DNA from: a virus
Length of the DNA stretch: 21,947 nt
Reading direction: 5' to 3' (one strand)
Virus record (IMG/VR): IMGVR_UViG_3300028384_000782
Location: 1 to 21,947 of that record
The position numbers and the translations under genes were made by a program. The stretch's first letter is position 1, and every line of letters starts with the position of its first letter. Under the pieces are notes generated by a model. The model saw nothing but the letters and a program-made list of their open reading frames with translations, had not been told where the DNA came from and did not search any database. This document shows positions 4,186 to 20,216 of the stretch, one piece after another.

Positions 4186-7122
4186 TTATCCCAAATCGTA
4201 AACGTTAGACATTGCATATTGTGGAATCGCATCATCTAATATCTTCATTCCAATTGCCACATCAATACCCATTGAAGCTTCTTCATCCACATCCCAAGGT
4301 ACTTCATCAGAGAATGTGTATGATAGCGATTCAATGAATGATAATTTATCCTTCCAAAGATTACCCAATGTGAATGTAACCAAAGTACCTGTATACCCCT
4401 GTGTACCATAAGTTGGCATTGTCATCGATGATAACCTTTCTAATTTTTTGTATAGTGGTTTTAACTCTGCTTTTGATGTAGGATATACCTGAAAGTTGAA
4501 ACTTAAACTTCTCTCAAATGTAGAATATTTGTATGCCTGGTCAGCTCTACCATTATATTTGAACGAATCCCAAGATGGTGAGAATGTTTCTGTAATACCA
4601 CTCACAGCACCTCTGAATTGTATTTGTGAACCACCACCATAAACATTAAATAATAGTTTAATTAAGTCCGTCTGAGCCTCATCACCAATTCCACTTAAAT
4701 TAATTGTATCACTTGATAAAGATTTACTTCTATCACTTCTATCTGCCCCATGTTTTGGTGCTGATGGGAATCCAATACGGGTTTCTATATTATCTTCTTT
4801 ATAGTTTTGGTCTTTTGCTCTTTTACTAGCATTACCATCTAACAGTTCTCTGAAATCATTAAATGTTGTATCACCTGCAACTCTCTTTGGTATCTTACCA
4901 TATGCGATTGTTTCGTAATTTTTTATGATTTCCGCTGCCGAGTCATTCTTTTCTAATGGATGAATAGTACCTTCAGTATTCTTAGTATTATTCTTAAAAG
5001 AATCAGGTAGGTTCTTTATATTCTCACCTAACTCAGTACTATCTGGTTCAAATGCAAGACCCGGCAAACCCGATTGATTAGGGCCGCCCTCAGTTGGGTT
5101 ATATTGGCTTTGGATTGTATATCCAGTAAACAACCCACCCAACGTACTTACATTTCTAGATGGTAATAACCCATTCGGAATCAATCCATATAGTGAATTA
5201 GGGCCACCTTTACCAAGAGTAAGTGTACTAAATTCTTCACCGATAAATTTACTCGTACCGATTGTGTTAGCCGATATTGTAAATGTTTCATTGTACAATT
5301 GTACTAATCTGTTTCCAGTATTTGCAATACCCAGTGTTACATCATCGGTATGAGAAATTCGTTTGGCTTTTTGTATTGCACCATAAGTTTCAACCTCAGG
5401 GTCAAATGGAGTGAACCCATGTCGTTTTGGTCTTAATCCTACAAATCCACCAATTGCTGATGCGATTGTGTTGATAGGAGTCCAAGTTTTTGTTAATCGC
5501 TTACCAGTAAGGGTTTCTACATTTGGATTGGATGCTTGTAATCCTAAGTTTTTGATTCCCCATAGTAATCCATTTACTGAAATCATCCACTTACCTAACC
5601 TCACTGCATCTACTACAGAACGGTCAACTGCCGTAACGATACCGCCTCTAACCAACCCATCATCGACTGGGAATCCAAATCCCCACTTTTGAGGTTCACC
5701 TTTATCGATTGGTTTTCGTTGAATACCCCTCATAATCAATGGATGTGCGAACGCAGCCGTTCCTAAATTAAATGCATCATCTCTAAGATTGTATTTGTGA
5801 TACATTTCATCTAAGAATGAAGGTGAGTTCTTCATCTCATGCAATTTAGATATGCTTGGATTTGTTAATTCAGTATCTACATAATACTTTGTATCAAAGT
5901 TATATCTCTGAGTCAACCCAGTTTCTTTACCCACTTTGAACTTACCATATCCAGCTCTGAACGATAATCCATTAAATGCCCCACTAAAGTTACTATATAA
6001 TGAACTTACATTATCAAACTGAGTATTATCAGGATTTATACCAACAAATTTGGTTTTAGTTTTATCAGTAAAGTTCTGAGTAAATCCAATTGCTTTATCG
6101 TTTGTAAACATATCCACAGATGGTGGGGTAACCGCCTGCTCATCTTTGTTGTTTGGAGTTTTAAAATTCTTTGGAGTCGTTTCACCTAAGAATTGTGCCC
6201 CCAAGTTCATATCGCTTGGGGTTGTTTCACCTAAGAATTGTGCCCCCAAATCCATATCTGTTGGAGTTGTTTCACCTAAGTACTGAGATTGATTATTCAT
6301 CTCAGTTGGAGTTGTCTCACCTAAGTACTGAGATTGTGGTGCCGCTGAATTTGGAGTTGTTTCTCCCAAATACTGCGATTCATTGTTCATCTCAGTTGGA
6401 GTTGTTTCACCTAAGAATTTTGATTCTGGTGCAGCTGACTTCTGAGTTGTTTCTCCTAAGAATTTTGATGTATTATCCATAGGCGTTGGGTTGGTTTCAC
6501 CCAAAAACTTAGATTGTGGTGCTGCGGATGTAGGGGTTGTTTCTCCGAGATAATTTTCGGAATTATCCATTGTTTTTGGTGTTGTCTCCCCTAAGAATTT
6601 CTCAGAATTATCCATTTCAGATGGTGTTGTTTCACCTAAAAATCTCTCCGATGTATCCATACGATTTGGAGTAGTTTCCCCTAAGAACTGCTCTGATGAA
6701 TCCATTTTTGATGGTGTTGTTTCCCCTAAGAATTTTTCTGAATTATCCATCTGTTGTGGATTTGTTTCACCTAAGTAGTTTGGTGAATTATCCATCTTCT
6801 CTGGTGTAGTCTGACCTAAATATCTCTGTTCCAAACTCATTCGAGTCGGTGTAGTTTCACCTTTGAACTTTTCGGTGTTATCCATAGGTGTTGCTGATGT
6901 TTCACCTTTGAACTTATCACCCTGCTGAACTTTATTTGGGTTTACACCCTCTTTATTTGTTGTTGTTTGGGAACGTGGGATTTTCGGCGCTGAATCTACC
7001 AGTGAACTCAATGGTGTTTGGTTCTGGTTTGATTTTATATCCTCTCTCTTCTTAGATTCCAAAGGTTCTTTCTTTGGCATTCTAAACTTGGACAAATCCG
7101 ATTTCATATCTTTCAGTGCCAT
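4186..7122 (-). CDS. Baseplate/tube-initiator protein with 17 x 15-residue repeat arm
   Basis: A 978-aa protein in three parts. Residues 1-69 are basic and Gln/Asn-rich, without predicted structure. Residues 70-324 are seventeen copies of a 15-residue repeat, consensus K-F-L-G-E-T-T-P-x-x-M-D-N-S-E. Residues 325-978 are folded; the last ~200 (FSPSWDSFKYNGRADQAY, then FERSLSFNFQVYP, LKPLYKKLERL and LSFIESLSYTFSDEVPWDV) match a domain I know from baseplate proteins that precede the LysM protein in marine and T4-like phages. It is probably a tube-like fold that caps or starts the tail tube, in the role of T4 gp48/gp54. Its ATG overlaps the tape measure stop by one base (TAATG), so translation is coupled. 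The function is inferred from domain pattern and order. The repeat arm is unusual for this class. Confidence 0.75.
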   Translation of the reverse strand: MALKDMKSDLSKFRMPKKEPLESKKREDIKSNQNQTPLSSLVDSAPKIPRSQTTTNKEGVNPNKVQQGDKFKGETSATPMDNTEKFKGETTPTRMSLEQRYLGQTTPEKMDNSPNYLGETNPQQMDNSEKFLGETTPSKMDSSEQFLGETTPNRMDTSERFLGETTPSEMDNSEKFLGETTPKTMDNSENYLGETTPTSAAPQSKFLGETNPTPMDNTSKFLGETTQKSAAPESKFLGETTPTEMNNESQYLGETTPNSAAPQSQYLGETTPTEMNNQSQYLGETTPTDMDLGAQFLGETTPSDMNLGAQFLGETTPKNFKTPNNKDEQAVTPPSVDMFTNDKAIGFTQNFTDKTKTKFVGINPDNTQFDNVSSLYSNFSGAFNGLSFRAGYGKFKVGKETGLTQRYNFDTKYYVDTELTNPSISKLHEMKNSPSFLDEMYHKYNLRDDAFNLGTAAFAHPLIMRGIQRKPIDKGEPQKWGFGFPVDDGLVRGGIVTAVDRSVVDAVRLGKWMISVNGLLWGIKNLGLQASNPNVETLTGKRLTKTWTPINTIASAIGGFVGLRPKRHGFTPFDPEVETYGAIQKAKRISHTDDVTLGIANTGNRLVQLYNETFTISANTIGTSKFIGEEFSTLTLGKGGPNSLYGLIPNGLLPSRNVSTLGGLFTGYTIQSQYNPTEGGPNQSGLPGLAFEPDSTELGENIKNLPDSFKNNTKNTEGTIHPLEKNDSAAEIIKNYETIAYGKIPKRVAGDTTFNDFRELLDGNASKRAKDQNYKEDNIETRIGFPSAPKHGADRSDRSKSLSSDTINLSGIGDEAQTDLIKLLFNVYGGGSQIQFRGAVSGITETFSPSWDSFKYNGRADQAYKYSTFERSLSFNFQVYPTSKAELKPLYKKLERLSSMTMPTYGTQGYTGTLVTFTLGNLWKDKLSFIESLSYTFSDEVPWDVDEEASMGIDVAIGMKILDDAIPQYAMSNVYDLG
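6151..6915 (-). repeat. In-frame tandem repeat, 17 units of 45 bp
   Basis: Seventeen consecutive 15-codon units encode residues 70-324 of the 978-aa protein. The core F/Y-L-G-E-T-T-P is nearly invariant (K-G in the first two units, G-Q in the third). The next seven residues vary: mostly xxMDNSE-like, but SAAPQS/SAAPES in units 9, 11 and 13, and DMxLGA in units 15-16. Length is exactly 45 bases throughout with no frame break. Neighbouring copies differ mainly at variable positions and third codon bases, which suggests old expansion under protein-level selection plus some recent copying; units 15 and 16 are close to identical. Confidence 0.95.
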
Positions 7123-9773
7123 TAGCTAAATCCTCTTGTTGATACACTCTGCCTACTTTGTACTCTTGTTATCTTCTGTACTGCTTTACCATCGATGTTT
7201 AGTACAATAGGTTGTGCTTTAATATCACTGCGTAACCCTTTTATCTCTTCTAACAATTCTGCGTTTCCACCACTACTACTATCTGAACTCTCAGAATCAC
7301 CACCGCCAAATCCAAAGAACTCACCAAGACCCATTAATGTAGGCGCTAGGGCTGCCAATCCGGCTATTGCACCGAATATTGGTATTGCGAGTAATCCCGC
7401 ACCAGCAACTGCTACCAACCCACCACTTATAGAATATAATGCGCCTGATAATTGGTACATTGGTGATACTAAATCACCCATACCACTCATAGATTCGGTA
7501 ACTATCGACATGTTATCTGCTACCGCTGCCAACCCATCACCAGCATCTTTAACTCCTGGCCCAACTTTTCCTAATTCCACTATTTGGTCTACTAATCCAC
7601 CACCGAACCAACTTGCAAAAGCACCAACTAATAGTGATGCTGAGAATGCCAACATACCAACCGATGCCAACATCAAAGCAGGTCCTAATAATAACAATCC
7701 TGCTATTGCTTCTGGTGTTATCGCACCTAACATTGTTACGAATCCATCGGCTATTGCCTGAATGATTGGTGGAACTGCGCTCATAACACCTACAATAACA
7801 TTACCAAATGCCTCTACTAATGGTGATAACAAAGATAATGCGTATGCGAAAGGAATCATAGCCGCACCTAATGCTGCCATCAACCCAATACCAATTAATA
7901 CAAACACCGCCGTACCCGGATTACCAAATGCTGCTAAACCAGCGGCTAATGCTGTAAAGTTTGCTTGAATTATAGGTCCAGTTGCTGGGATGGACATGAA
8001 TGCTAAGAATGGAATTGCTAATAATCCCATCGCAAGTGCCGGCCCCACTAACATCATTGTTAATGCACCTAATGCACCTTGTGGCATTTGTGCTAAACCT
8101 CTACCCAAACCTCCAAAGTTTTCTTCTAATGCCTTTAGTTTAACCTTACCCATAAACAATAGGAATGGGATGGATGGAAGTGCTACCACAAATGCAGGTC
8201 CTGCTAATGCAACTACACCAACACCTGCTAATACTTTACCATCACCCATTTCTCTTAAACCATCGGCAAGTGATTTTAATCCACCACCACTACCTTGTGC
8301 AGCTCTACCCCCACCACCGCCACCTTTACCAAACATACCCTTTACACCATCTTTCAGATTACCAAATCCAGCACCTTTACCCATCATCATATTCATAATA
8401 GCGGTTTTAGCAATCAACTTAACCATTTCCAAAGTCATATTACCAACAGCACTAGCACCCATCGCTAAAAACCCCTGAGCACCTTCTACTAACCCGGCAT
8501 ATTCACCATACTTTTCTGTAAGTTCTTTTTGCTTTTCTGTGGTTTGTATTTTGGTTGCCAAATCTTCAACACTCATACCATATGATTGAGCCATAATCTG
8601 TTGCTCTTTCAACGACATGTTGTTAAAATCTTCTGCTGAACCTACCTTTTCCATTAAGAGGTCGGACATTTGTGTAGCGATTCTGGTTCTTTCTTCTTCG
8701 GTCTTTGCAGTTTGTAATTGTAACGAAAGAGACCTCATCTCATTAGCGCCGATATCTCTACCAAACATTGCTCTAGCTTTAGCCTCATTTCTCATCGAAG
8801 TTTCAATATCCAACATATTGTTAGATAAATCTTCGATTTCACCCATTGTCATACCACGCTTCTGAAGTTCGATATTACCTTTGATGATAAGTTCTAATTC
8901 TTCTTCACTTGCACCAACTAATCTGTGCATTTGGTCACCAAGACCCTTTACTGCTAATTGACCAGATACACCAGCCTCCTTAGCTATATCAGAAATTTTA
9001 TCTTTTACATCACCAGCCTCAACTCCGGCAGATTCAAATGCTTCGGTTAGTTTTAGTGCGGTTGATGCATCTCCCGTTAATGATGAAACCTCAGTAACCC
9101 CTTTGATTAAATCTGTGGTTGCTGCATTAACGTTACCATATTCTTCGGTGATTGCTTTTGCAGATGCGGCTACAGCATCTGAACCATATAGGAATCCGGT
9201 CATACTCATAGATGCCAGTTCGATGTTACCTTGCAGTTTCATCGCCTCACCACCAGCAAGTCCCAATTCCGTTACATTGGATTTAACGCCATCATACATT
9301 CTTGATATATTAGCACTTACATTCTCAAATGCTTTATTTAAGAATAGTACCTTCATACCACCACTTACAATGGCTTCTTCGATATCATTATCGATACCTA
9401 ATATCTCTTGTAGAATACCTTTTTGAGCGTTTTTAAAATCATTTATTTCTTCTTCTATTTCCTTTTCTTTTTGCTTATTTTGTAAAAGCTTTTTCGCACT
9501 ATCAAGCTGAGTGATGTAGTGCTGATTAACCTCATCGCCTCGCTCAACTTGCTCTTTTAACATTTCTTCAATAGCTTCATCAATAGTAGATATTTTAGAT
9601 TTTAAATCACCTTCTTGAGCGAGTTGAGTAAGAAGTTGTGCTTTACTCTCAGTAGCTTGTTTGGATAATGCTTTTGTTGTATTCGCGGCAGCGAGTATCT
9701 TCTGAGTAAAATTATACTCAGCTTGAAGAAGTTCTTTACGTTCTTTTAAACTCTTATTTTTATCGTCTGCCAT
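7122..9773 (-). CDS. Tail tape measure protein
   Basis: An 883-aa protein with the classic tape measure make-up. Residues 1-130 are highly charged and helical (probable coiled coil). A long helical middle follows, then a glycine-rich hinge (GKGGGGGGRAAQGSGGG, around residue 480). Residues ~500-840 are very rich in Ala, Gly, Leu and hydrophobic helices, of the sort expected to be injected or to span the inner membrane. The end is a short Ser/Gly linker plus a charged tail (LEEIKGLRSDIKAQPIVLNI). It sits inside the tube, sets tail length, and lies directly after the 26/51-like chaperone genes as expected. At roughly 1.5 Angstrom per residue the tail would be about 130 nm, longer than T4. Start: ATG 9773 with a weak CGGATAAC upstream. 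Confidence 0.9.
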   Translation of the reverse strand: MADDKNKSLKERKELLQAEYNFTQKILAAANTTKALSKQATESKAQLLTQLAQEGDLKSKISTIDEAIEEMLKEQVERGDEVNQHYITQLDSAKKLLQNKQKEKEIEEEINDFKNAQKGILQEILGIDNDIEEAIVSGGMKVLFLNKAFENVSANISRMYDGVKSNVTELGLAGGEAMKLQGNIELASMSMTGFLYGSDAVAASAKAITEEYGNVNAATTDLIKGVTEVSSLTGDASTALKLTEAFESAGVEAGDVKDKISDIAKEAGVSGQLAVKGLGDQMHRLVGASEEELELIIKGNIELQKRGMTMGEIEDLSNNMLDIETSMRNEAKARAMFGRDIGANEMRSLSLQLQTAKTEEERTRIATQMSDLLMEKVGSAEDFNNMSLKEQQIMAQSYGMSVEDLATKIQTTEKQKELTEKYGEYAGLVEGAQGFLAMGASAVGNMTLEMVKLIAKTAIMNMMMGKGAGFGNLKDGVKGMFGKGGGGGGRAAQGSGGGLKSLADGLREMGDGKVLAGVGVVALAGPAFVVALPSIPFLLFMGKVKLKALEENFGGLGRGLAQMPQGALGALTMMLVGPALAMGLLAIPFLAFMSIPATGPIIQANFTALAAGLAAFGNPGTAVFVLIGIGLMAALGAAMIPFAYALSLLSPLVEAFGNVIVGVMSAVPPIIQAIADGFVTMLGAITPEAIAGLLLLGPALMLASVGMLAFSASLLVGAFASWFGGGLVDQIVELGKVGPGVKDAGDGLAAVADNMSIVTESMSGMGDLVSPMYQLSGALYSISGGLVAVAGAGLLAIPIFGAIAGLAALAPTLMGLGEFFGFGGGDSESSDSSSGGNAELLEEIKGLRSDIKAQPIVLNIDGKAVQKITRVQSRQSVSTRGFS

Positions 9774-16082: not shown

Positions 16083-16727
16083 TTATCCTATATAGATTGC
16101 ACGAGGAACTCTGTTTAATGTTTGCTCCATCGCTTCTGATTCTTCTTGTTGTGCTTGCAATAATGCTTTACGAGAAGTCGCCTCTAAGTTTTCTCGTAAC
16201 TCTGAAATTAAGATTTCTTTTTCTGTAGCAGCCTCACTTCTCAAATCAGCACCATCCAAAGTTACTTCTGAATTTGGAATCGGAATTGATGAGAATTTAG
16301 CTCTAACAGCACCCAACATCTCTTTAGCCAATGCTAATGTATATTTTTCAATCCAACGCTTACCCACATGATTGATATTTGAATATCGAATTCTATCAAA
16401 TCTGGCATTTGAGTAATCAGATACTACTGAATCCGATACTATCGGGTTACTTCTATCCGATTCTAAAATGTAATGAAAGTGTACAGTGTATTCATGCTCA
16501 GGTATTGGAAATAATCTTACTCTATTGTTTTGAATATCGAATCCATATTGAGATTTACGAACCATATCATTGAATTCGATTGCTTGTAATCTTAAAAGGT
16601 CATCATAAAGTGGTTGCATCATAAATGAAACACCTGGTGAGTAGTTACCCCATCCGAAAGTATCCATCATTTGTTGTGAACCTAAACCAGTACCAATGAA
16701 TGGGTCAAAGTATCTTACCATAATCAT
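16083..16727 (-). CDS. gp13: Neck protein, C-terminal part (gp13-like, split gene)
   Basis: A 214-codon frame from ATG 16727 (MIMVRYFDPFIGTGLGSQQM). It carries the C-terminal half of the neck family: DTFGWGNYSPGVSFMMQPLY, then LLRLQAIEFNDMVRKSQYGF, then NNRVRLFPIPEHEYTVHFHY, then KRWIEKYTLALAKEMLGAVR, IPIPNSEVTLDG, and an ending IYIG. In the relatives I remember, this follows in one polypeptide from the N-terminal part, through a roughly 30-residue linker before RYFDPF. Here it is +1 relative to the upstream frame, overlapping by 23 bases, with no good ribosome site. It may be translated by coupling, by frameshift, or reflect a deletion or sequence error. Confidence 0.75.
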   Translation of the reverse strand: MIMVRYFDPFIGTGLGSQQMMDTFGWGNYSPGVSFMMQPLYDDLLRLQAIEFNDMVRKSQYGFDIQNNRVRLFPIPEHEYTVHFHYILESDRSNPIVSDSVVSDYSNARFDRIRYSNINHVGKRWIEKYTLALAKEMLGAVRAKFSSIPIPNSEVTLDGADLRSEAATEKEILISELRENLEATSRKALLQAQQEESEAMEQTLNRVPRAIYIG

Positions 16728-17145
16728 AAACTTGTTGATTTGTATTTACTTCAAATGAACCTGTATAGTAAGTTACTCTACCACCACTACCCGCTTCTGT
16801 TCCATAATCTTTAGATAATGAAATTAACCCACCTAAGTTTGCGTTTAGTTGTGTTTGTGATAGATTTGAACCTGTAGAACTGCCTCTAAGATTCAATAAA
16901 TTTTCTCTAATGTTAAATTGGTTTACTTGCGATGAGTATTCAGTAACTGCTTCCTCAAAACACGCATAAAAATTAATATCTTGTAGTTCAATATCGACAA
17001 TAGGATATCCCAAACGTTTAGCACACCATCCAGCAGTTTTATCTGCGGATGCTGTAAACTCTACATCAGTATCATAGTACCCAAATGGAGTACTTCCTTC
17101 TGAGAACGATGATGAACCCGGCCATATTGGAATATTTACCGCCAT
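16705..17145 (-). CDS. gp13: Neck protein, N-terminal part (gp13-like, split gene)
   Basis: A 146-codon frame starting at ATG 17145 with AAGGAG six bases upstream and the octamer 20 bases upstream. It has STPFGYYDTDVEFTASADKT, then WCAKRLGYPIVDIELQDINF, then CFEEAVTEYSSQVNQFNIRE, then YGTEAGSGGRVTYYTGSFEV. This is the N-terminal half of the gp13-type neck protein, which joins the portal side of the head with gp14. It ends abruptly at TGA after VYDYGKIL, where the family normally continues. The following +1 frame carries the rest. Upstream is a methyltransferase gene, 45 bases away; this gene heads the neck unit 13-14-15. Confidence 0.75.
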   Translation of the reverse strand: MAVNIPIWPGSSSFSEGSTPFGYYDTDVEFTASADKTAGWCAKRLGYPIVDIELQDINFYACFEEAVTEYSSQVNQFNIRENLLNLRGSSTGSNLSQTQLNANLGGLISLSKDYGTEAGSGGRVTYYTGSFEVNTNQQVYDYGKIL

Positions 17146-17190: not shown

Positions 17191-17769
17191 TCATTTGTTT
17201 ATGTACCAAATCAGATTATAATCACCTCTATCAAATGTAATTACTTTTATGTGCTTTTCCCATCCAAATGCATCTACAATTTCTTCACATTTTTCTGCAT
17301 ATGATGAAATTTCATTAAAATATGAGTATATACCATTGGGTTTTAGAATTTTAGGTACAATTTCCGAAAACGGGCCCCATTGAGGCCAATTTACATAATC
17401 AAATGGAAATGTATCAAAATAAATACTATCAAACTTCTTACCATCTTTAATAAATTGTGGGATAATATCTTCCCAAACACCCTCAATAGGGTCAAATCCC
17501 ATTTCCCGTGCCTTATCACATACTTGTGGATGTGCTTCTATAATACAATGTTCAGTTGGGTTATGTTCTCTAATATATGAATCAATTATACCCATACCAA
17601 AACCAACGTTTAATACAGAACCACCATTTGAACATAGAATTTTAGCACTTTCATACATCAATTCATCTTCATCATCCGACATTATGGCACAGCACTCCAT
17701 TCCAGCTACCGTTAAGGCATGTTCACTATATGATACATCACCCTTTAAATATTTTTCAAATGCATCCAT
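17191..17769 (-). CDS. SAM-dependent methyltransferase, GAMT/RMT2-like
   Basis: A 192-aa class I methyltransferase. Motif I is VLNVGFGMG at residues 52-60; the acidic end of strand 2 is HCIIEAHP (E78, ribose binding); GVWEDIIP follows at 97-104; KFDSIYFDTFPF at 112-123; then ILKPNGIYSYFN at 141-152. The combination NVGFGMGI, IIEAHP, G.WEDI and FDTFP is that of the guanidinoacetate / arginine N-delta methyltransferase (GAMT/RMT2) group, which act on guanidino nitrogens. Substrate here is unknown. It lacks the N-terminal ankyrin-like part of RMT2. The start (ATG 17769) directly abuts the stop of the short S74-like protein, so it is the last gene of the adhesin unit; arginine or protein methylation of a virion part is one inference. 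Confidence 0.8.
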   Translation of the reverse strand: MDAFEKYLKGDVSYSEHALTVAGMECCAIMSDDEDELMYESAKILCSNGGSVLNVGFGMGIIDSYIREHNPTEHCIIEAHPQVCDKAREMGFDPIEGVWEDIIPQFIKDGKKFDSIYFDTFPFDYVNWPQWGPFSEIVPKILKPNGIYSYFNEISSYAEKCEEIVDAFGWEKHIKVITFDRGDYNLIWYINK

Positions 17770-18432
17770 TTATATTAATTTACAGTCTATATCTAATTTA
17801 TTGTAATCTACCCACACATCACCATCTTTGGTAGATAATACATCTGAAAGTCCTAATCTTTGTAATTCATCTACCATAGTACCCACATATCTACCTATAC
17901 CATTCGGAGCGTGTTCTGGATTTTTATATTCGAAATGATATATAGGAATTCCCATTGGAGATGTTCCAATATATTCAATGTTTTTCTTTAATCTTCTTTC
18001 AGAACGACAGCTTCCAAAACCAGTTACTGCGCCCGAAGAAACAGAGTACCAAGAGTTTTGAGATTGGTATTTGTAATGACCATCACCTAAAGATGTCGTA
18101 CCCTTTGCATCACTATATACATTATCACCAGTAGTGGGGTCCGCGCCAGCGCCATCGTGATAGTATGTTTGAAAGACAGTTTGTAAACACGCGTTGCTGG
18201 GATTTGATTGTAAGGTTGATGAATCATATGCTGTCAGAGTTGCGGTCGCATTATGGTTATATCCATAAAATTCAGATATTGCGTGGGGTTGTGCTTGGTC
18301 AGGTACGTTAGGTGCTGAGTTTGAATTTATATTTGTTGTAGATAGTGTTTCGAGTGAATCATTACCTTGAGCCAACCCTTTTTCGTTTACGATATCACCT
18401 ATACTAATTTGTCCCGATGATGGTAGTGTCAT
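17770..18432 (-). CDS. Short tail/fibre protein with S74-like C-terminus
   Basis: A 220-aa protein. The opening MTLPSSGQISIGDIVNEKGL is common in short phage tail proteins (LPSSGxISxxDI), with ISEFYGYNH near residue 53. The middle (55-140) is Ser/Thr/Asn-rich beta sequence. From residue 144, SERRLKKNIEYIG resembles the start of the S74 intramolecular chaperone domain, followed by IPIYHFEYKNP and GRYVGTMVDELQRLGLSDVL. The expected SD pair at the cleavage point is SE here, and the usual long C-terminal helix is absent, so self-cleavage is doubtful. Its ATG overlaps the fibre stop by one base with AAAGGAG upstream. Likely a fibre tip or accessory adhesin. Confidence 0.75.
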   Translation of the reverse strand: MTLPSSGQISIGDIVNEKGLAQGNDSLETLSTTNINSNSAPNVPDQAQPHAISEFYGYNHNATATLTAYDSSTLQSNPSNACLQTVFQTYYHDGAGADPTTGDNVYSDAKGTTSLGDGHYKYQSQNSWYSVSSGAVTGFGSCRSERRLKKNIEYIGTSPMGIPIYHFEYKNPEHAPNGIGRYVGTMVDELQRLGLSDVLSTKDGDVWVDYNKLDIDCKLI

Positions 18433-20216
18433 TACAATCTCCTTTTAAGTTCTTCAATCTCAGCTTTAAGTTCTTTGATTGATTCAATCAGCAATGGAAC
18501 TAACTTTTCATATTGTACAGTTAGATAGTTTTCGCCTGAAAGTGAGCCATCACTACCATCATTATCAAATGGTGCTCTTTTTACTGCTTCAGGTAATACA
18601 CCTTCTACATCTTGTGCAAATACACCCACCATTGATTGATTTCTATCAAATCCTGCTAATTTATTTGCAGTTTCATTCCAATTAAATGTAAATCCTGATA
18701 GTTTATCTATTTTCTCTAAAGGATTTTCAATTGGATTAATGTTTTCTTTTAATCGTTTATCTGATGAATATGCTACGATATCGTTACCAGCATCAATTCT
18801 ACCATCTATTACACTCGCTGCTACATCAACACCCAATGCACCATTATTTACACGCCACCCATTGGTATTAATTGTTCCCCTCTGTGTTCCACCGGTCGTT
18901 ATTGAAATAGTATCGGTAGTTCCTCTATAGAATCCAGTATTTGTATCATCTTTAAAGAAAATCGATGGTTTTCCAACCAAACCATCCTGAGCACGGAAGA
19001 GTCCAGTAAATGAACCACTTGCAGTACAAGTATCTCCTTCTACCACAATTGCTTCATTGTTAAATGTACCAATATTAACAGTATCATCTGAGAATACTTC
19101 AAAAATTGGAATACCTGATATATCATTTACCGAAAATAAAGAACCCGATAGCTGGTCTGTTACTTCAAACAATCTACCTTGCGCCCCATCAATAGCCATT
19201 ACAACATCATCACCAGTTGAACCAGACATATAAACGGATAATGAACCCGTTACCCTAACATCTACTGATGCTGATGTATATGTTGTACCATCGAACCACT
19301 CATATCCACTACCACCAGCAGCGGTTGAGCTCAGTACGTTACCCCCTATGGATAACCCCGTACCAATATCTAACCAAGCCACTTGACCAGCACTATCATC
19401 CCAAAAAAGAATTCTATCATCATTAGGGTCTGCTAGCGAAGTACCAGTACCACCATGTGCCAATGCAATATCTGTTCCACCCCATGTACCAGTTCCAATT
19501 GTACCCAATGTTGTGATATTGGTAGAGCCATTAAAGCCGTTTTCTAATCCGTTTGGAGTTACTACCTTTGTCGTAGAAGTACCAGTAGTAGTTTCTGCTA
19601 TTGTTGCTAATTCTACAACACCCTTTACTGATGTAGTAGCATCTGGCTCATCACCAGTGTTCGTACCACTTAAACCTGTAATAAATGCAGGGTCGATGGC
19701 TGTACCCTTCCATATACCAGTAGCAATTGTACCTAATGTTGTAATATTGGTAGAACCAGCCCATGAAGAAAGTGCGGTGTTTTCAACGTTTCCTAATCCT
19801 ACATCACCTTTTGTAGTTCCTTGTGCTCTAAGCGAAGCATAAGTTCCATCTTCATCAAATTCATCACCTGTCATTGGTGCGGTATTGGTGATTGTGATTG
19901 TACCACCACTAGTCGTTGAAGTCATCTCTGATTGAATACCAGTACCTTGTGCTATTGTAAGAGTTTCACCATTTGTTACCGATGTTGATTCCGAACCATT
20001 ACCTTCTTTGATAGTCCAAGAAGACATTGTACCCGTTCCAGTACCCGCACCGATATCTGAACGTACTTGGGTACCTGTTCTGAAATCTACATTTCCCGCT
20101 GAATCTAATACTAAGAATTTATCAGTATCCGTATTTGCGTTTACTATACCCGATAACTTTAATGTGTTTAATGATGCATCACTTCCTGAAGTGATTAGTT
20201 TTTTCCAATTTGGCAT
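18432..20216 (-). CDS. Tail fibre with C-terminal S74 peptidase/chaperone domain
   Basis: A 594-aa protein. The N-terminus MPNWKKLITSGSDASLNTLK is a common start of marine phage fibres. Residues ~40-300 are Thr/Gly/Ser-rich beta repeats, including two copies of STNITTLGTIxTGxWxGTxI and ALAHGGTGTSL. Residues 485-594 form the S74 domain: SDKRLKENINPIENPLEKID, then VGVFAQDVEGVLPEAV, then LTVQYEKLVPLLIESIKELK and a terminal helix. In known S74 proteins this domain trimerises the fibre and then cuts itself off just before the Ser of the SD pair (S485 here). The role is host recognition. Start ATG 20216 has AAAGG close upstream and follows a 104-base leader with a hairpin and the octamer. Confidence 0.9.
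   Translation of the reverse strand: MPNWKKLITSGSDASLNTLKLSGIVNANTDTDKFLVLDSAGNVDFRTGTQVRSDIGAGTGTGTMSSWTIKEGNGSESTSVTNGETLTIAQGTGIQSEMTSTTSGGTITITNTAPMTGDEFDEDGTYASLRAQGTTKGDVGLGNVENTALSSWAGSTNITTLGTIATGIWKGTAIDPAFITGLSGTNTGDEPDATTSVKGVVELATIAETTTGTSTTKVVTPNGLENGFNGSTNITTLGTIGTGTWGGTDIALAHGGTGTSLADPNDDRILFWDDSAGQVAWLDIGTGLSIGGNVLSSTAAGGSGYEWFDGTTYTSASVDVRVTGSLSVYMSGSTGDDVVMAIDGAQGRLFEVTDQLSGSLFSVNDISGIPIFEVFSDDTVNIGTFNNEAIVVEGDTCTASGSFTGLFRAQDGLVGKPSIFFKDDTNTGFYRGTTDTISITTGGTQRGTINTNGWRVNNGALGVDVAASVIDGRIDAGNDIVAYSSDKRLKENINPIENPLEKIDKLSGFTFNWNETANKLAGFDRNQSMVGVFAQDVEGVLPEAVKRAPFDNDGSDGSLSGENYLTVQYEKLVPLLIESIKELKAEIEELKRRL

Follow-up and report, generated by a model that had tools for sequence, protein, structure and literature searches.

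RMT2 is an arginine methyltransferase that carries ankyrin repeats and has the ribosomal protein L12 as its substrate. It is of type IV, and the available text of PMC4860837 describes it as a delta-N arginine methyltransferase. The other namesake of its superfamily, guanidinoacetate methyltransferase (GAMT), has been described in viruses: the accessible part of an ocean survey presents viral GAMT as the most virus-enriched of its genes, places it in nine virus populations, each restricted to the Arctic, and accounts for it by the making of creatine (PMC11360552). Arginine and lysine methylation of virion proteins, a tail fiber included, has been detected by mass spectrometry in marine Cellulophaga phages, for which the portion of the report at hand states that no known methyltransferase is present and proposes host enzymes (PMC13288928). 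Within the limited collection of literature searched, we came across no description of a GAMT/RMT2-family phage enzyme that acts on proteins.

Here, we analyze a 21,947-base stretch of DNA (the window), a virus record of its own, which encodes a GAMT-like methyltransferase next to tail genes. The window looks like a T4-like phage, i.e., a virus of bacteria, because its sheath protein shares 60% identity, across its full length, with the one in Microcystis phage Mel-JY01, and because the neck protein of a relative, L004, matches those of Mel-JY01 (54%) and of the Flavobacterium phages 'immuto' (41%). No counterpart of the enzyme was found in the annotated regions around the neck genes of Mel-JY01 and the 'immuto' phages.

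The methyltransferase gene and its tail neighbors

Table 1. Features of the methyltransferase locus (window coordinates)
Feature	Position	Strand	Basis
Methyltransferase gene, GAMT/RMT2 superfamily, 192 aa	17191..17769	(-)	ORF, PDB matches, model, dN/dS
SAM-binding loop VGFGMGIID, residues 55-63; contains the clade-specific Asp63 and directly follows Asn54	17581..17607	(-)	Alignment
Glu34, aligned to the GAMT guanidino-clamp Glu; preceded by Asp33	17668..17670	(-)	Alignment
Glu78, SAM-site acid	17536..17538	(-)	Alignment
Asp119, aligned to the GAMT Asp numbered 134 in the literature	17413..17415	(-)	Alignment
Adhesin gene, fiber-tip-like, 220 aa, directly upstream	17770..18432	(-)	ORF, gene order
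Putative C-terminal S74-type intramolecular chaperone of the adhesin, residues 144-220; expected dyad Ser144 + Lys149	17773..18003	(-)	Pfam matches of members
Arg143, predicted end of the mature tip in the case of cleavage before Ser144; candidate methylation site	18004..18006	(-)	
Long fiber gene with C-terminal S74 chaperone	18432..20216	(-)	Profile matches
Neck/head-completion gene	16083..17145	(-)	One 384-aa gene in L003 and L004

The sequence-only reading had recognized the methyltransferase by four motifs, all of which are present in the minus-strand ORF that starts with the ATG at 17769: VLNVGFGMG (residues 52-60), IIEAHP (76-81), GVWEDI (97-102), and FDTFPF (118-123). It had also described the gene as abutting a fiber-tip-like gene and preceding the neck genes, and this is borne out. 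The ATG comes immediately after the stop codon that ends the 220-aa adhesin gene, leaving a gap of zero bases, and 45 bases separate the methyltransferase from the downstream neck gene. An adhesin gene before and a neck gene after the methyltransferase were found in all four relatives (63 to 96% identical), with both gaps identical to those of the window in L003 and L004 and gaps of 56 and 46 bases in L005. The dN/dS ratios of the window gene were 0.07, 0.08, and 0.16 against L002, L003, and L004, respectively, and the protein is thus under purifying selection. Given the conserved gene order, these ratios, and the GAMT matches in the PDB detailed below, the ORF is intact and a real gene, not a chance frame.

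The neighbors deserve a closer description. The window ORFs 16705-17145 and 16083-16727 correspond to a single 384-aa neck gene in L003 and L004, of which 92 bases are missing in the window, breaking the frame; this is either an assembly error or a real loss. As to the upstream adhesin, 19 of the 21 aligned members match Peptidase_S74 (PF13884) at an E value of ≤0.05 (best, 3.7e-5), with the window protein itself at 17.3 bits, below the cut-off of 22. Both residues of the expected dyad, Ser144 and Lys149, are invariant across the aligned members, and an S74-type chaperone lies at the C terminus of the upstream adhesin in 22 of 27 loci of the window's subclade. The single-chain model of the adhesin (pLDDT 73) gave no useful structural match for the S74 fold, and a profile search of the PDB with this protein returned one weak match, to a potassium uptake protein (E = 0.012).

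Family membership and active-site residues

Sequence and structure searches converged on GAMT. At an E value of ≤0.01, phmmer against the PDB retrieved four distinct sequences, all of them GAMT (5e-15 to 6e-14), and a profile of 83 viral members reached GAMT at 3e-32, with the next protein at 4e-6. The AlphaFold2 model of the methyltransferase (pLDDT 94.6, pTM 0.91) was used as the query for Foldseek and VIA-align 2, both of which ranked GAMT first; in VIA-align 2, GAMT (PDB 3orh, 1xcj, and 1khh) scored Z 22.1 over 186 to 187 residues, i.e., nearly the whole chain, with an rmsd of 2.4 to 2.5 and about 26% identity, and the best family other than GAMT was catechol O-methyltransferase (Z 16.4). 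The top viral fold match was BFVD entry A0A8D9CBY1, which comes from an uncultured marine phage and is named 'putative guanidinoacetate methyltransferase'. Pfam and PHROGs gave no match for the window protein, nor did PHROGs for six relatives. At an E value of ≤0.001, Pfam Methyltransf_25 matched 27 and RrnaAD 20 of the 83 members (best, 2e-7), the window protein not among them. The window protein had three NCBIfam matches; the models matched by it and its relatives (PRK14968, aminopropyltransferase, RsmA, and Erm) all scored far below their curated cut-offs. In PADLOC, one of three proteins tested, a relative and not the window protein, matched mad2 (E = 1.7e-8), which we take as a shared methyltransferase domain. 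These results agree with the earlier proposal of a guanidino/arginine N-methyltransferase, as opposed to a DNA methyltransferase. A DNA-, RNA-, or FkbM-type identity was considered and rejected, the relevant NCBIfam matches lying far below the cut-offs and the generic Pfam matches occurring in some relatives and never in the window protein.

To examine the active site, we aligned the window protein and the human GAMT segment with representatives of 82 viral clusters, which were obtained by clustering 185 ORFs of ≥150 aa at 70%. The sequence-only reading had set the presence of the guanidino-binding acids beforehand as a test, and both are found by alignment (not by a ligand-bound model): the Glu34 column holds Glu in 81 of the 82 viral clusters and Asp in one, and the Asp119 column holds Asp in 81 and Asn in one. 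Glu78, presumably a SAM-site acid as in the rest of the family, is invariant (82/82), and Trp99 is kept in 81 of 82. We take the GAMT clamp residue aligned with Glu34 to be rat Glu45. A catalytic role of GAMT Asp134, the counterpart of Asp119, is described in the available part of PMC12471008. The window protein thus shares with GAMT the SAM loop GFGM, the clamp Glu, the catalytic Asp, and the G-x-WE motif. It differs in length (192 versus about 236 aa) and in three positions near these motifs, with Asn54 and Asp63 where GAMT has Glu and Ala, and Asp33 beside the clamp Glu where GAMT has Trp. These substitutions follow the phylogeny outlined below. Asn54/Asp63 occur in all 34 clade-A rows, whereas the other 116 rows have Glu54 and either Ala or Ser at position 63; the Trp beside the clamp Glu is replaced by Asp, Asn, or Glu in all six members of the window's subclade and is present in 138 of the 144 others.

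The VLN-x-GFGMGIID, EAHP, and DT motifs that we attribute to RMT2 resemble those of the window's clade. The ankyrin repeats of RMT2 would not fit into the 192 aa of the window protein. Judged by its sequence, the window protein is a member of the GAMT/RMT2 superfamily other than GAMT proper, and it may be akin to RMT2. Very probably, it is active as a guanidino N-methyltransferase of this superfamily and is no DNA enzyme.

Phylogeny of the viral family and the slot behind the fiber gene

Relatives of the window protein are abundant in viral contigs. A scan with a four-sequence alignment matched at least 599 stretches, at least 448 of them relatives (the 80 best were retained), and a motif scan matched at least 120 stretches; the loci sampled from these two scans are neither a complete nor a random set. 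The family comprises 190 ORFs among 203 loci, a number that counts some records twice. Loci L001 and L007-L010 duplicate the record of the window or others on the list, and some of the loci from later scans, the fiber-domain scan included, lie on the same contigs as earlier ones. In the named-phage collection, one relative was found, encoded by an uncultured phage of 635 kb that carries no annotation. Genome contigs yielded 72 relatives in the family-profile search and none in an earlier scan made without that profile.

Some records carry the enzyme more than once: two copies are found in L053 (2881-3465 and 5929-6564) and L199 (1910-2539 and 11165-11752), and two in overlapping tandem in L124 (5956-6576 and 6554-7261). 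Among the cellular relatives, L211, L213, L215-L219, L222, and L232 (Nitrospira and a Nitrospirales MAG) have the GAMT-like domain near the end of long frames, which exceed 1800 aa within the fetched stretch and possibly encode multidomain enzymes.

A 150-row tree, built from 83 viral and 66 bacterial or archaeal rows plus human GAMT, placed the window inside a purely viral set of 34 with an SH-aLRT of 97, hereafter clade A. Clade B groups the 49 other viral rows with two cellular ones; one 'cellular' member within it, L230 (4279-4839, a Flavobacteriales MAG), is perhaps phage DNA. The remaining 64 cellular rows include human GAMT, next to two cyanobacterial proteins. In a bootstrapped tree of 70 rows, one branch split virus from cell with weak support (90/28), and the window's subclade of six was supported at 100/100. 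Because of this separate, weakly supported viral clade, together with Asn54/Asp63, we do not regard the window protein as GAMT proper.

To describe the gene neighborhoods, we labeled the rows by hand as fiber-linked or other, with L074 and L126 omitted. A fiber or adhesin gene adjoins the enzyme in 43 of the 81 labeled viral rows, the window counted, and 38 rows have no such neighbor. Where the adhesin lies upstream, its distance to the enzyme gene is ≤20 bases, often with overlap, in 37 of 39 clusters. The upstream neighbor is a T4-type clamp loader in 12 of 77 rows, and a third class of neighbors comprises other genes, 2OG-Fe(II) oxygenases among them; the downstream-neighbor count omits L127 and L071 (2/75). 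The enzymes next to clamp loaders are clade-A members (L034, L035, L038, L043, L049, L052, L058, L059, L061, L072, L075, and L168).

Fiber linkage is unevenly distributed over the tree: it concerns 6 of 34 clade-A rows, namely, the window's own subclade and none of the other 28, versus 37 of 47 rows elsewhere. The fiber/other label changes at least six times on the 150-row tree and twice on the reduced 70-row tree, from which we infer that the link was gained or regained at least twice, in two or more branches. In clade B, L170 has the enzyme between adhesin-like and neck-like genes, the same arrangement as in the window. The place of the gene in a tail adhesin block, as first read from the window alone, is shared with its four relatives and recurs in other viral branches. 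In L074, one of the rows left unlabeled, a Gly-Pro-Leu-Ser/Thr-Leu-Arg-Gly-Arg motif is common to the two proteins flanking the enzyme (4250-5995 and 6635-7651).

The enzyme gene is accessory, with a fixed slot behind the fiber or tip gene. Among 80 neck-gene loci, it was adjacent in 22 and absent in 46, and 12 were too short to score; loci with the enzyme were accepted at any length, whereas those without it needed 500 bases upstream, a length that 2 of the 22 do not reach. The clade-B fibers supply the second case. Their C-terminal domain, ending ...RVVGY...IYFNPDNTWV, is often found in viral contigs (248 relatives), and at 80 loci carrying it (L353-L432) the enzyme was next to the fiber in 27, nearby in 1, absent in 48, and out of reach on too short a stretch in 4 (20, 1, 37, and 3, respectively, when counted as distinct tips). 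The profile for this domain was built from fibers that precede the enzyme, and 27/80 is therefore no unbiased frequency. When the enzyme is absent, the gene behind the fiber encodes a protein of 219 to 249 aa in 33 of 48 loci, much like the protein that follows the enzyme elsewhere, and one of another size in the remaining 15.

Candidate substrates

The virion arginine that we consider first is the C terminus of the adhesin. In T5 pb1, cleavage occurs before Ser, which departs with the chaperone, according to the accessible part of PMC4690869; if the window adhesin were cleaved by the same rule, ...Gly-Ser-Cys-Arg would be the end of its mature tip. A natural stop at Cys-Gly-Arg is seen in the L023, L025, and L026 adhesins and in a 541-aa protein of L029. 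At the neck loci, after dropping those that lack a tip-domain match and merging identical tips, a terminal Arg was found in 17 of 17 distinct tips with the enzyme versus 7 of 19 without it within the fetched stretch (Fisher test, 4.5e-5, uncorrected for kinship). This association is weakened by stratification. S74 is present in 15 of 17 tips with the enzyme versus 4 of 19 without, and S74-type tips end in Arg in 19 of 19 cases, whether the enzyme is present or absent; among tips other than S74, those ending in Arg were 2 of 2 with the enzyme versus 3 of 15 without (P of about 0.07 by hand calculation). The C-terminal Arg is thus weakly supported as the target. Nor would it be a general one, because the S74 adhesin next to the clade-B enzyme of L180, the tips of L170 and L098, and the clade-B fiber domain all end otherwise.

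An invariant Arg within the clade-B fiber domain was considered as an enzyme-specific target and discarded, being equally constant where the enzyme is missing: it is kept in 52 of 52 loci, 48 of which lack the enzyme and 4 of which are too short to score. Separately, some adhesin-like clade-B neighbors have glycine-rich ends with arginine, in L102 (5878-6468, minus strand), L141 (4021-4359, plus strand), and L162 (2321-2878, minus strand). The arginine is the final residue of the poly-glycine end in L141 and is followed by a few more residues in L102 and L162. These ends recall known arginine methylation motifs, which is only a lead.

Our best explanation, held tentatively and at a shade under even chances, is that the gene product is an active guanidino N-methyltransferase of the GAMT/RMT2 superfamily that depends on SAM, is made together with the adhesins, and methylates an arginine of the adjacent fiber tip or adhesin. 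The enzyme would be translated along with the adhesin, presumably late in infection, and would bind SAM and hold the arginine guanidino group between Glu34 and Asp119. An arginine of the adhesin or of a neighboring tail protein may then be methylated, which could alter the hydrogen bonding of the tip. For the window's lineage, the leading candidate would be the C-terminal arginine left if the S74 chaperone cuts itself off; such a residue would present a guanidino-plus-carboxylate end, chemically like guanidinoacetate. On the side of fiber-tip methylation are the fold and family, the conservation of the SAM site and clamp, the purifying selection, the tight spacing to the adhesin, the recurrence of the arrangement, and the accessory nature of the gene. 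The sequence-only reading had offered modification of a virion protein, or of a host guanidino metabolite, as a hint from the position of the gene, and the recurring gene order suggests the former more strongly. Arginine methylation on a tail fiber, as proposed here, is what the consulted part of PMC13288928 reports for Cellulophaga phages; the difference is that no known methyltransferase is described there, whereas the window virus encodes a putative one.

The position of the gene is in itself weak evidence of a substrate, since adhesin cassettes may gain and lose genes easily. If such traffic alone explained the location, the enzyme could instead methylate an arginine of a host protein, e.g., a ribosomal or surface protein. 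We judge this somewhat unlikely. It would suit the clade-A members that adjoin clamp loaders and other nonstructural genes, the dispensability of the gene at the neck loci (22 with, 46 without, and 12 too short among 80), and the example of RMT2, which acts on the ribosomal protein L12 and whose delta-N arginine chemistry is given in the available text of PMC4860837; the tight spacing to fiber genes in separate branches and the slot immediately behind the tip gene argue against it. Some relatives probably do act on something else, because 38 of 81 rows are not fiber adjacent and 12 of 77 follow clamp loaders, and the clamp-loader-linked branch of clade A probably has another target, since its enzyme is located among replication genes.

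A metabolic role appears quite unlikely. Here, the protein would be a true GAMT making creatine, or would methylate another small guanidino compound, as suggested by its nearest solved relatives, all GAMT, and by the ocean survey, whose accessible text gives viral GAMT (K00542) as enriched 85.4-fold relative to microbial homologues, with creatine synthesis as the proposed role (PMC11360552). The survey's viral 'GAMT' and A0A8D9CBY1 probably belong to the same viral family as the window protein, the survey set being placed there by its description; creatine metabolism is the context in the consulted part of that report, in contrast to the fiber-protein neighborhoods of 43 of 81 rows here. Besides this fiber linkage and the weakly supported separation of viral rows from the human GAMT clade, the amidinotransferase PF02274 was found in 0 of 36 virus records, 33 of them with the enzyme found, and in 3 of 14 named control genomes; this lowers the likelihood of a metabolic role, with the proviso that the records may be incomplete and that absence is unprovable in fragmentary records. 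Creatine kinase (PF00217) was likewise found in 0 of 36 virus records, but the control genomes were silent too, which leaves this result uninformative. Two further explanations do without a guanidino substrate as the main point. A methyltransferase fold acting as a folding helper of the fiber, with catalysis secondary or lost, would account for a gene immediately behind fiber-tip genes, and the available part of PMC10579305 describes a fiber module with a cognate chaperone in Alteromonas phages; the near invariance of the SAM-site and clamp residues over 82 clusters makes it very unlikely. The other explanation, a methyltransferase whose target is unrelated (DNA, RNA, or an FkbM-type sugar), would draw on the NCBIfam matches and on Methyltransf_25 and RrnaAD in some relatives, all listed above. 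With the NCBIfam scores so far under the curated cut-offs and GAMT the clear leader by sequence and structure, we consider it extremely unlikely.

Methylation of the phage's own fiber tip thus remains our preferred explanation. In its broadest form, it would make these proteins widespread, unrecognized phage protein-arginine methyltransferases that modify their own fiber tips and, in the window's lineage, methylate the C-terminal Arg exposed by S74 cleavage, tuning host recognition; we hold this extension to be speculative and unlikely as a whole. If tail adhesins are indeed methylated in this way, the type of arginine methylation reported on phage virions would have a phage enzyme to its name, and variation in host recognition would gain a chemical layer. 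The gene order offers an alternative and testable reading of viral 'GAMT', the post-translational arginine methylation of tail adhesins.
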